Source: Alphaproteobacteria bacterium (GTDB taxonomy: Bacteria; Pseudomonadota; Alphaproteobacteria; Caulobacterales; Aquidulcibacteraceae). From it: a stretch of 39,330 bases of DNA. The stretch spans positions 55,001 through 94,330 of the forward strand of contig JAGWZE010000012.1 of the NCBI GenBank assembly GCA_018969015.1, read 5' to 3'. The translations under genes and the position numbers were made by a program. Numbering within the stretch: position 1 is the stretch's first letter; the number at the start of each line of letters is the position of its first letter. The notes beneath the pieces are model-generated. The model did not search any database, had not been told where the DNA came from, and saw nothing but the letters and a program-made list of their open reading frames with translations. Below, piece by piece: positions 34,737 to 37,967 of this stretch.

Positions 34737-35171
34737 ATGAGTGATCGGTTCGGCCCCTATGGCGTGACGCTGTTGCGCGTCAGCTTGGGCCTCATGTTTC
34801 TCGCGCACAGTATCGTGCTGAAATTGATGACGTTCGGGCTCGCAGGCACGGCCCAGTTCTTCGAGGGCGTCGGCCTGCCCGGGTGGCTCGCCTACGCCAC
34901 GTTCGCGGCGGAAGCGCTGGGCGGGCTCGCGCTCGTGGCGGGCGTCCAGGCGCGTTGGGTGGCGCTCGCCCTTGCTCCGATCCTGATCGGCGCGATCGTG
35001 TCGGTGCACGGCGCCAAAGGCTGGGTGTTCACCGCGCCGGGCGGCGGCTGGGAGTATCCGGCGTACCTGTTCGTTCTTTGCATCGCGCAGACGCTGCTCG
35101 GCGACGGCAAGTTCGCGCTCTCGCCGTCCGTCTCGCTCGCCAAGGTGACGCCCCAGGAGGCCCACGCATGA
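34737..35171 (+). CDS. DoxX family membrane protein
   Basis: A four-helix integral membrane protein of 144 residues. YGVTLLRVSLGLMFLAHS opens the first helix, and AEALGGLALVAGVQARWVAL is the usual DoxX signature of helices 2-3. DoxX proteins are linked to thiol/oxidative-stress membrane complexes and to quinone reduction. GGAG lies seven bases before the ATG. Its stop overlaps the ATG of the truncated GST gene (ATGA at 35168-35171), so the original operon was doxX-gst under MarR control, a common arrangement. Confidence 0.92.
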   Translation: MSDRFGPYGVTLLRVSLGLMFLAHSIVLKLMTFGLAGTAQFFEGVGLPGWLAYATFAAEALGGLALVAGVQARWVALALAPILIGAIVSVHGAKGWVFTAPGGGWEYPAYLFVLCIAQTLLGDGKFALSPSVSLAKVTPQEAHA

Positions 35172-35446
35172 CCACGCTCGCAGCGTCCACGACGCCCATC
35201 ACCCTCGTGTCCTTCGCGCTCTGCCCCTATGTGCAACGCGCAGCCATCGTCCTCGCCGAGAAGAACGTGCCCTTCACGCGCATCGACGTCGATCTCGACG
35301 ACAAGCCGGACTGGTTCCGCGCGATTTCGCCTCTCGGCAAAGTCCCGCTCCTCCAGATCGCCGCCCGACAAGCGCGGCGTCCCTGCACTGGGCCTCGCCC
35401 TTGGCGACTGCGGCCTCGATCGTGCGCTGGATTGCAGGTTGGGTGA
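35168..35446 (+). pseudogene. Glutathione S-transferase, N-terminal part only (broken gene)
   Basis: The frame starts with the ATGA overlap after doxX and encodes 92 residues. The first 64 or so are a good GST thioredoxin domain: LVSFALCPYVQRAAIVLAEK with the active-site Cys-Pro, then ISPLGKVPLLQI. After that (about 35360) GST similarity stops abruptly and is replaced by Arg/Pro-rich sequence to a stop at 35446. The glutathione-binding ES motif and the whole helical domain are missing. A matching GST C-terminal half lies on the opposite strand at 35847-36117. Confidence 0.85.
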
Positions 35447-35846: not shown

Positions 35847-36117
35847 CCCGTCGTTAAGCTGCCGCTTGATGTCCGGCAGCATGTGCGAGCACGCCGCCTT
35901 TGTTCTTCACGAAGGTCGTGAGAAGCGCGGCGTAGTCCGGCGCGACGGCGCCTCGTACGGACGGCCGCTCGGCCAAGGCAGCGCGCCACGCCTGCACTTT
36001 CGGCAGGCCCACGAACACGCCGAGGTCCGCGAAGCCGTCGAACACGTCGAAATAGCGGAAGATCGGCGCGAACACGGCGTCGACGATGCGGAATTTGGCG
36101 CCGTCGAAGTAAGGGCG
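35847..36117 (-). pseudogene. Inverted C-terminal half of a glutathione S-transferase
   Basis: The minus frame from about 36117 reads RPYFDGAKFRIVDAVFAPIF, then RYFDVFDGF, then PKVQAWRAALAERPSVRGAV and a helical end. This is the GST C-terminal domain, including the VDA N-cap. It lacks any start or thioredoxin domain. Near the end the frame shifts: one reading ends AHAAGHQAAA at the stop 35854-35856, while the neighbouring frame gives the more GST-like HMLPDIKRQLND, which suggests a one-base deletion. It could be the missing half of the gst at 35168, flipped. Confidence 0.75.
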
Positions 36118-36167
36118 CTCGCCAGGGCTGCGAAAACCAATGCGGTGAAACAGAGTGATTTCTTCAT
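36114..36167 (-). pseudogene. Orphan 5' end (signal peptide) of a lost secreted-protein gene
   Basis: An ATG at 36167, preceded directly by AGGTGTGAG, opens MKKSLCFTALVFAALASA, a textbook Sec signal peptide. After about 18 codons the sequence passes into the inverted GST fragment in another frame, and no mature protein follows. The gene has therefore lost everything beyond its signal peptide at the fusion junction near 36114-36117. Confidence 0.7.
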
Positions 36168-36247
36168 CTCACACCTATGTACTCATAGTGGGCGCAAAAC
36201 CATTTCGACCCGAGTTCATTTACCATAATCAAATAAGTGAGCAATTT

Positions 36248-36296
36248 TCTTAGCGCTCACATTAGGTATTAATTGTTTGTTTATTTAGATTGACAA
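36248..36296 (-). promoter_or_regulatory. AT-rich promoter with LacI-type operator-like dyad (minus strand)
   Basis: On the minus strand, TTGTCA (complement of 36291-36296) and TTAATA/TAATAC (complement of about 36266-36272) form a -35/-10 pair with 18-19 bp spacing. Just downstream is TGTGAGCGCTAAGA (complement of 36248-36261). Its centre AGCGCT, with flanking TG and A, resembles operators of LacI-family regulators. It leads to the orphan signal peptide at 36167. The region 36170-36305 is strikingly AT-rich compared with all neighbouring DNA and contains no other gene. Confidence 0.5.
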
Positions 36297-36387
36297 ATCA
36301 TTAACACGCGCACGACTGACGCCCCCTTGCCTGCGGCCACGCCACTCGGCATCGTCTGCGCCCCTTTCGCCGCGGAGCGCCGCGTTC

Positions 36388-36927
36388 GTGTTCTTGTCCC
36401 GATCCGCCATCGAGCGCGCCGTCGCCTCCGGCGCGGTGACGATCGATCCGTTCGATCCGACCCGCTTTACCGGCGCGAGCTACGTGTTCGGCGTAGGCGA
36501 CGAGATGCTCGAGGTGGCGCCACAGGCCGATGGCGCGGGCTTCACCTTCTCCCCCCGCGCCGTGCTGCTCGAGGACGGCGCCTGGAGCCTGCAGCCCGGC
36601 CGCCTGTATCTCGCCGCGACGGACGCGCGCATCGGCTCGAACGCCTACGCGATGCGCCTCGTCGGCCGCCCCGCGCTGGGCCACACCGGGCTGTTCCTGC
36701 AGATCTCTGCCGATCTTGGCCACCAGGGCGCCTGTCACGCCTGGACGCTGGAGATCATCGCCACGCGCCCGACGCGCCTCGCGCCGTTCCAGAAGATCGG
36801 TCAGGTCGCGTTCTGCCGCACGCTCGGCGCGCCCGCCCCCTATGCCGGCGCGTTCGCCGCCACCGATCGCCCCGCGATGTCGCCGCTGCACGCACCGCGC
36901 GACGCGCCCTCCCAGGCCCGCTCATGA
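36388..36927 (+). CDS. dCTP deaminase/dUTPase-fold protein, first of an overlapping pair
   Basis: A protein of 179 residues from a GTG at 36388 with GGAG ten bases upstream. The layout follows dCTP deaminase: SRSAIERAVASGAVTIDPFD at the start, a beta core, WSLQPGRLYLAAT where Dcd has FYLHPGELxL, and a final beta segment IGQVAFCRT. At the nucleotide/phosphate motif where Dcd has RSSLARLGL, it reads RPALGHTGL (94-102), losing both serines and the arginine. The catalytic Glu position is kept (E122 in WTLEIIA). Its TGA overlaps the ATG of the second gene (36924-36927). Activity alone is doubtful; a mixed oligomer with the next protein is possible. Confidence 0.8.
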   Translation: MFLSRSAIERAVASGAVTIDPFDPTRFTGASYVFGVGDEMLEVAPQADGAGFTFSPRAVLLEDGAWSLQPGRLYLAATDARIGSNAYAMRLVGRPALGHTGLFLQISADLGHQGACHAWTLEIIATRPTRLAPFQKIGQVAFCRTLGAPAPYAGAFAATDRPAMSPLHAPRDAPSQARS

Positions 36928-37373
36928 TCCTCACAGGACCGCACATCGCCGCCGCCATTGCCGCCGGCGACATCACCCTCACGCCGTTCGACGGCGCCAC
37001 CAATCCCAACAGCGTCGACATCCGCCTCGGCGCGACATTGCGCGACCATTCCGGATTGGAGATCGACGCCGCCGCGGACGCGCCGCTCCCCCCCGAACAA
37101 CCGCTGCCGGCGGAAGGCGTCTGGCTGCGCCCTGGCGGCCTCTACACGGCCGAGAGCCGCGAGACCTTCGGCTCGTCACGCTACGTGCCGATCGTGCATG
37201 GCAAATCGTCGATCGCGCGCGCGGGCCTGTTCGTCCACGTGAACGGCGACATGGTTGATCTTGGCGTCGTCGCGCCGTTCACGTTCCAGCTCGTGCCGAC
37301 GGCGCCGATCCTCGTGCGCCCCGGCATGGCGATCGCGCAGGTGACGTTCTGGACGGTGAGCGACGCGCTCTAG
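36924..37373 (+). CDS. dCTP deaminase/dUTPase-fold protein, second of an overlapping pair
   Basis: A protein of 149 residues, paralogous to the preceding gene: GPHIAAAIAAGDITLTPFDG, NPNSVDIRLG, WLRPGGLYTAES and the final LVRPGMAIAQVTFW. Here the phosphate-binding motif is intact, KSSIARAGL (94-102), but the catalytic Glu is replaced by Gln (Q122 in FTFQLVP). The two proteins align without shift at these positions (94-102 and 122), so each keeps what the other has lost. It is shorter than Dcd (about 193) because it lacks the C-terminal lid. Its stop is 6 bp from the stop of the convergent canonical dcd gene. Confidence 0.82.
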   Translation: MILTGPHIAAAIAAGDITLTPFDGATNPNSVDIRLGATLRDHSGLEIDAAADAPLPPEQPLPAEGVWLRPGGLYTAESRETFGSSRYVPIVHGKSSIARAGLFVHVNGDMVDLGVVAPFTFQLVPTAPILVRPGMAIAQVTFWTVSDAL

Positions 37374-37379
37374 CCGCGC

Positions 37380-37967
37380 CTATTTGCGTTCGCTGGCGAT
37401 CCGGCTGCCCGTGGCGCCGCTCTGGCCGACATACTTGGCGTCGTCGCGCGCGCCGTAGTGGCGGATCGCCGGCGACGACAACGGCTCGAACGCGATGGCG
37501 CACACCGCCATGCCCGGCCGCAGCCCCAGCGGCAGCCGCCCGCAATTGAAGAACTCCAGCACCAGTTCGCCGCGCCAGCCCGGATCGACGAAGTGCGCCG
37601 TGGTGTGGACCGTGAGCCCCAGCCGCGCGAGGCTCGATCGGCCGTTGATCGTGCCGCAGATGTCGGGCGCGAGCTCTACGTGCTCCATCGTCGCGCCGAG
37701 CACGAGTTCGCCCGGATGCAGGTAGAACACCCCGTCGGCGTCGATCGTGATCTCGTCGGACATGGTGCGGTTGATCGCCGCCGCGATGTCGGCGCGCGAT
37801 GTGCCCAGATCGATATGCGAACCGGTGTGCATCGAGAACACCCGGAACTTCGGCCCGAGCCGCAAATCCACGGACGCGCCGTTGATCGCCGTCTCGGCCG
37901 GCGCGGGATCGATCTTGATGCGGCCGTCGCGCATCGCGGCCAGGATGTCGACGTCCGAGAGTTTCAT
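37380..37967 (-). CDS. dcd: dCTP deaminase
   Basis: A protein of 195 residues that aligns along its whole length with E. coli Dcd (193 residues). It deaminates dCTP to dUTP, the source of dUMP for dTMP synthesis. Key positions fall at the same numbers: S111 and R115 in GRSSLARLGL, and E138 in LVLEFFN. One visible change is AHFVDPG where E. coli has AHRIDPG (R126 is F126). The C-terminal lid with the Lys-Tyr-Gln-Gly motif (DAKYVGQSGA) is complete. It is convergent with the short deaminase-like pair, which it clearly outclasses as the housekeeping enzyme. Confidence 0.96.
   Translation of the reverse strand: MKLSDVDILAAMRDGRIKIDPAPAETAINGASVDLRLGPKFRVFSMHTGSHIDLGTSRADIAAAINRTMSDEITIDADGVFYLHPGELVLGATMEHVELAPDICGTINGRSSLARLGLTVHTTAHFVDPGWRGELVLEFFNCGRLPLGLRPGMAVCAIAFEPLSSPAIRHYGARDDAKYVGQSGATGSRIASERK

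Follow-up and report, generated by a model that had tools for sequence, protein, structure and literature searches.

dCTP deaminase (Dcd) and the dUTPases are textbook homotrimers with active sites between their subunits. In Dcd we take Ser111, Arg115, Asp128 and Glu138 (numbering of the E. coli enzyme, PDB entry 1xs1, throughout) to have the roles commonly assigned to them, and the PDB titles of E138 variants agree with this assumption. The bifunctional dCTP deaminase-dUTPases (M. tuberculosis 2qlp/4a6a, M. jannaschii 1ogh, B. halodurans 4xjc) probably use one site for both reactions, the Glu for deamination and the Asp for hydrolysis. Alphaproteobacteria also possess a two-domain DCD (PF06559 + PF22569; 2r9q), a fused chain of two Dcd domains, and short single-gene Dcds with the full catalytic set in one chain occur on viral contigs, in Patescibacteria and on Bacillota plasmids (e.g. 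L043, L066, L072, L114 and L115). Among the matches listed in the literature we searched, there was no description of a heteromeric or paired Dcd.

The locus described here differs from all of these. It lies in a stretch of 39,330 nucleotides of an alphaproteobacterial genome assembly of 69 contigs; this whole stretch, as analysed, is referred to as the window. On its forward strand, the initial annotation had described two overlapping Dcd-like ORFs with an ATGA junction, and these were found as claimed: ORF A (36388–36927; 179 aa, GTG start) and ORF B (36924–37373; 149 aa) share the stop/start overlap at 36924–36927. The motif residues that had been reported, RPALGHTGL and Glu122 in A and KSSIARAGL and Gln122 in B, were recovered at the same positions. 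A thus keeps the Glu equivalent to Glu138 of E. coli Dcd (Glu122, 36751–36753), while its motif II is degenerate (RPALGHTGL, residues 94–102, 36667–36693) and lacks the Ser and Arg, His112 (36721–36723) stands at the position of the motif-III Asp128, and the C-terminal lid is missing. B keeps motif II (KSSIARAGL with its KSSIAR core, residues 94–102, 37203–37229) and the motif-III Asp (Asp112, equivalent to Asp128, 37257–37259), carries Gln122 at the Glu138 position (37287–37289) and is likewise without the lid. Three points go beyond the initial annotation: A has lost the motif-III Asp, B has lost the lid, and RPALGHTGL is lineage-specific, as discussed below. Six bases past B, a canonical E. 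coli-type dcd (37380–37967, reverse strand) converges with the pair. Like Dcd, A and B have the fold, the domain length and the motif positions of this family; unlike Dcd, neither has the full catalytic set, and there are two genes instead of one gene for a homotrimer. This also matters for annotation, as in database records one or both carry the name dCTP deaminase or deoxycytidine deaminase, yet neither has a full catalytic set.

Both A and B have the Dcd fold, so that the assignment to the Dcd/dUTPase fold made from the letters alone is borne out by the Pfam scores and by the structural matches. Against PF22769 (DCD), A scores 52.6 bits and B 94.1 bits (cut-off 27), and the neighbouring dcd matches as well. 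Only dcd passes the equivalog model TIGR02274 (192.2 bits at a cut-off of 92.8), whereas A (31.3 bits) and B (54.7 bits) fail it. No match of A or B to the trimeric dUTPase family PF00692 was found at E 0.1, and neither belongs to the two-domain DCD (PF06559/PF22569): the two are separate genes, and for DCD_N, B reaches 15.9 bits against a cut-off of 21.4 and A has no match. AlphaFold2 models of the single chains, built from 16-row alignments, have a pLDDT of 82.2 (A) and 92.9 (B), and the best PDB matches of both in Foldseek are Dcd or Dcd-dUTPase chains, with the bifunctional enzymes giving the best structural matches. In contrast to these enzymes, the pair has the Glu and the Asp on different chains. 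The motif II residues 95–99 form a short helix in the model of B; the same stretch of A is modelled as non-helical, with less certainty (block means of 68 and 72).

We then counted the key residues in 26 A proteins, 26 B proteins and 51 single-gene relatives. The 26 pair loci include near-copies (L005/L006; L117/L118/L124; L020/L021; L120–L123) and exclude L027 from Embleya; the singles exclude identical rows, rows below 60 bits (L095 and L098) and the viral loci L100–L102. Glu138 is present in every A protein (26/26), none of which has Asp128 (His in 12, Gln in 8 and Asn in 6). The B proteins show the complementary pattern, with Ser111, Arg115 and Asp128 each in 26/26 and Glu138 in none (Gln in 15, Met in 6 and Thr in 5). 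Among the singles, Ser111 and Arg115 are invariant (51/51 each), and Asp128 and Glu138 are each found in 49/51. As the complementary Glu138/Asp128 pattern is present at 26 of 26 pair loci, chance can be excluded as its origin. Loss of the Glu alone, by comparison, is no sign of pairing, because two singles outside the A-B clade, L057 (His) and L094 (Ala), also lack Glu138 while keeping motif II and the Asp; two other singles, L056 and L089, lack Asp128.

Further positions set the A proteins apart. Ser111 is kept in 16 and Arg115 in 17 of the 26, and 16 have an RSSLGRLGL-like motif II; the RPALGHTGL of the window is lineage-specific, because so many of its A relatives keep both residues. The residues W135-T136-L137 before Glu138 are invariant in 26/26 A proteins (Trp135 is also found in 27 of the 51 singles), Gln121 occurs in 24/26 versus His in 43 of the 51 singles, and His133 in 24/26 versus Gly in 32 of the 51. 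The pattern at Trp135, Gln121 and His133 suggests that the pocket of A was remodelled rather than abandoned. At position 131, Phe is found in 40 of the 51 singles, whereas an aromatic residue (Phe, Tyr or Trp) occurs in none of the 26 A and in four of the 26 B proteins. The C-terminal lid (K178, Y179) is present in 18 of the 26 B proteins, the B of the window not being among them.

The pair is rare. Its 26 loci come from Alphaproteobacteria, from actinobacterial and rhizobial plasmids and from Patescibacteria, the coverage of actinobacteria being that of their plasmids. Within a set of 61 genomes (that of the window and 60 relatives) A and B occur in two, and in a phylum-wide sample of 398 genomes, searched with A1 at E 1e-20, the pair was found in the genome of the window only, with a single gene in one other. 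Further pairs were found in a Saccharibacteria genome, a Bradyrhizobium MAG and two near-identical alphaproteobacterial MAGs. In the phylum of the Saccharibacteria genome (Patescibacteria), 9 of 379 sampled genomes have adjacent matches, seed included (70 genomes matched, and loci were taken from the best 30, i.e. L032 and L034–L062); its class holds one more genome with adjacent matches. For the order of the Bradyrhizobium MAG the count is 2 of 397, again with the seed. Among plasmids, 17 records match B, 11 of them in two places (Streptomyces, Embleya, Nocardiopsis, Nonomuraea and Rhizobium). A tblastn search of phages with B gave 36 records, from haloarchaeal viruses and one Saccharomonospora phage, each matched at a single place; identity was 31.6–32.9% among the best 30 of the 36. 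The B of L019 matched four phage records. A first scan of viral contigs gave no match; a scan with alignment A2 gave 37 loci, with one Dcd-like ORF each among those listed and no adjacent pair. A phage origin of the pair was considered and rejected on these searches.

The architecture of the pair is largely constant: A and B lie within 41 bases of each other in 25 of 26 pairs, with a 4-base overlap in 18, and at 23 of the 26 loci they are the only Dcd-like ORFs that reach 60 bits in the stretch read. B lies close to every A read except in L027, and the order of the two genes is reversed (B-A) in L025 and L113. In L027 (9001–9696, an Embleya plasmid), a deletion seems to have fused A in frame to the end of B, lid included. 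L113 (5998–8281, also an Embleya plasmid) has an extra ORF between B and A, and its B carries a long C-terminal extension without a Pfam match.

In a tree of 102 rows and 134 columns, with the motif columns masked and five short or partial singles left out, the A and B proteins and one single (L038) form one clade among the short single Dcds (support 99/98), which are its nearest single-chain relatives in the tree. Within it, 24 of the 26 A rows group together (91/93), and the B rows with the reversed-order loci L025 and L113 are partly resolved. Because A, B and one single form one clade, the simplest history is a duplication followed by complementary loss. Singles with all the catalytic residues, which had been named beforehand as evidence against such a pair, do exist, but only L038 of the 46 in the tree falls inside the A-B clade. 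The close relatives that lack both the A motif II and the B lid are under purifying selection, with dN/dS of 0.026 (A) and 0.062 (B) between L005 and L006, and of 0.146 (A) and 0.122 (B) between L120 and L121. Between the window and L006, which are 53–58% identical over nearly the full length, the values are higher (A 0.29, B 0.51), indicating weaker constraint, and were obtained at high dS. The two losses tend to coincide: where the A motif II is damaged (10 pairs), eight have also lost the B lid, and where it is intact (16 pairs), none has (Fisher p 2.9e-5), although with about three changes per trait on the pair tree a phylogenetic independent-pairs test of this co-loss has no power. The pair of the window is one of the eight; the exceptions, L025 and L113, have lost the A motif II and kept the B lid.

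The relatives of this genome offer a second case of divided motifs. Among the 61 genomes, an E. coli-type dcd is found only in the two that carry the pair, side by side with it. The N domain of the two-domain DCD (PF06559) is matched at 5.5e-30 or better in 56 of the 61; in the two genomes with A, B and dcd the match is weak and runs through dcd itself, and three genomes give no match. The two A-B-dcd genomes are thus without the usual two-domain DCD. We identified this two-domain enzyme in three relatives (L129–L131) and aligned that of L129 (976–2013). Its N domain keeps KSSTGR and the Glu, has Arg at the Asp128 position and lacks the lid. In the C domain motif II is missing; the Asp, the lid and the Glu are retained, the Glu being placed by eye as it is gapped in the alignment. 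Like the pair, the two-domain DCD consists of two Dcd domains with complementary motif loss; unlike the pair it is a fused chain, and the split runs elsewhere (motif II and Glu in the N domain; Asp, Glu and lid in the C domain). The divided motifs of L129 suggest that complementary loss after duplication has occurred more than once in the Dcd fold.

The other neighbours of the pair in the window are a MarR regulator, a DoxX gene, a GST-like fragment and an AstE/AspA-type hydrolase. The GST-like sequences comprise an ORF with an incomplete GST N-terminal domain (34883–35446, forward strand; Pfam, residues 105–160) and an ORF that by eye resembles a GST C-terminal piece and has no Pfam match (35854–36075, reverse strand). 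The G/C content, about 69–73% in A and B, dips to 49% at 36050–36349, just upstream, and a rearrangement may have left its scar in the sequence before the pair. A foreign composition of A and B was considered and rejected, their G/C content being close to that of the surroundings. Repeats flanking the pair were limited to matches that, judged without a control, look like chance in G/C-rich sequence. Elsewhere the surroundings are different. A glycosyltransferase lies within about 6 kb of at least 12 of the 26 pairs, as seen by annotation (L019 and L022–L025), by BLAST to that of L023 (L026 and L111–L113) or by Pfam (L116, L007 (as L126) and L119), and those of L019 (a Streptomyces plasmid) and L116 (Patescibacteria) are related. 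Class I methyltransferases, nucleotidyltransferases, NUDIX proteins, S66 peptidases and a tRNA-synthetase-like protein are further neighbours. None of these genes has a counterpart beside the pair of the window, and the window lacks the glycosyltransferases and methyltransferases of the other pairs.

Taken together, these sequence comparisons make it reasonably probable that A and B together form an obligate hetero-oligomeric enzyme, each gene supplying one kind of subunit. Its origin would be a short dCTP deaminase encoded by one gene, which would have been duplicated in tandem, the two copies then losing complementary residues. Dcd and dUTPase active sites have been described as intersubunit clefts (PMC4827122), and because the sites of this superfamily lie between subunits, two incomplete chains could complement each other; A and B probably work only together. 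An obligate heteromer with shared sites, one of the readings offered by the initial annotation, gains support from the complementary loss at 26/26 loci, from the adjacency of the genes and from purifying selection, and the two-domain DCD of L129 is a precedent for motifs divided in this fold. We propose that A and B would come together in a mixed trimer of the Dcd type, or in a multiple of such a trimer, with the working site between the beta-hairpin that bears Glu138 of A and the phosphate-binding motif II (Ser111, Arg115) of B, because this is the only combination of Glu and motif II that is present in 26/26 pairs. It would not be a canonical Dcd site, as the hairpin of A lacks Asp128. A second site, made up of the Asp128 hairpin of B, motif II of A and the lid of B, may serve hydrolysis or nucleotide binding in most relatives; this combination is complete in 16 of the 26 pairs. 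In the lineage of the window both partners would have lost their share of it, so that a single composite site of the deaminase type remains. If so, the complementary loss on a duplicated pair would provide a natural test of how a homotrimeric enzyme becomes an obligate heteromer.

As to the substrate, a conserved Tyr of the same hairpin helps dUTPases to exclude ribonucleotides (PMC12524310). Given this role, the loss of the aromatic residue at position 131 makes ribonucleotide or modified-nucleotide substrates conceivable. Since position 131 is rarely aromatic and many neighbours are glycosyltransferases or methyltransferases, we would speculate that a ribonucleotide or modified pyrimidine nucleotide is a likelier substrate than dCTP. 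An activity on such a substrate would be an unrecognised pyrimidine-nucleotide activity, often encoded near biosynthetic genes on plasmids. A more elaborate version can be put forward only tentatively and we regard it as rather doubtful: two specialised composite sites, one of the deaminase type (Glu hairpin of A, motif II of B) and one for hydrolysis or sensing (Asp hairpin and lid of B, motif II of A), would function in the biosynthesis of glycosides or nucleosides, with a ribonucleotide or a modified pyrimidine nucleotide as the substrate, the second site having been lost from both partners in the lineage of the window.

Could the pair instead be a non-catalytic nucleotide-binding regulator, i.e. 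a pseudoenzyme, which in the lineage of the window perhaps tunes the neighbouring dcd? The residues missing in the window (Asp128, Ser111 and Arg115 in A; Glu138 and the lid in B) would fit, and so would the E. coli-type dcd that sits beside the pair in the same two of 61 genomes. We nevertheless consider a regulator unlikely, as Glu138 with W135-T136-L137 is invariant in 26/26 A proteins and His133 is kept in 24/26, which would be needless in a dead site, and as 23 of the 26 pair loci offer no further Dcd-like ORF of at least 60 bits in the stretch read. It is less probable still, and in our view improbable, that A and B have no more than an operon in common, each forming a homo-oligomer of its own with a new function unrelated to that of the other. 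Each chain alone does have a good predicted Dcd fold; against this, the constant company of B for every A read, apart from the deletion fusion of L027, would be left unexplained, homotrimers of A would, in 10 of 26 pairs, have the Glu but no intact motif II, and those of B would always lack the Glu.

A role in defence had been proposed for the pair, which would deplete dCTP within an anti-phage or other conflict system. The known defensive dCTP deaminases are zinc-dependent enzymes of the cytidine-deaminase fold, unlike the Dcd fold. Deamination of dCTP as such is a known defensive activity (PMC11084316), and the patchy distribution and plasmid carriage of the pair would suit such a role. The glycosyltransferases of L116 and L126 moreover match PF20706 (GT4-conflict) at 39.7 and 44.9 bits (cut-off 26), which is the one pointer to a conflict role among the neighbours, but general glycosyltransferase families score higher. 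PADLOC, run on A, B and dcd, returned no family at E 0.1. It presumably holds a model of a defensive dCTP deaminase. Five neighbours in the window, run against Pfam, matched no defence family, and at the other loci the genes nearby encode for the most part glycosyltransferases, methyltransferases, nucleotidyltransferases and S66 peptidases, so that the proposal found little support and a defence function seems very unlikely to us. Decay of the window pair, which might be read from the missing motif II of A, the missing lid of B and the dN/dS of 0.51 for B against L006, was rejected as barely credible on the dN/dS among close relatives, given that L005/L006 have the same losses at 0.026 and 0.062 and that window and L006 remain alike over nearly their whole length.

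Two neighbourhoods of other pairs deserve mention on their own. In L117 (4783–5814) and L119 (4821–5819), which represent two lineages, an S66 peptidase adjoins the pair, and genes for a class I methyltransferase and a tRNA-synthetase-like protein are close by; these loci are possibly clusters for a nucleotide-peptide product. In L120 (2411–4008), a gene of the uracil-DNA glycosylase superfamily (Pfam) and an ORF that by eye resembles a nucleoside diphosphate kinase lie near the pair, and relatives of both genes recur in the L120–L123 lineage.
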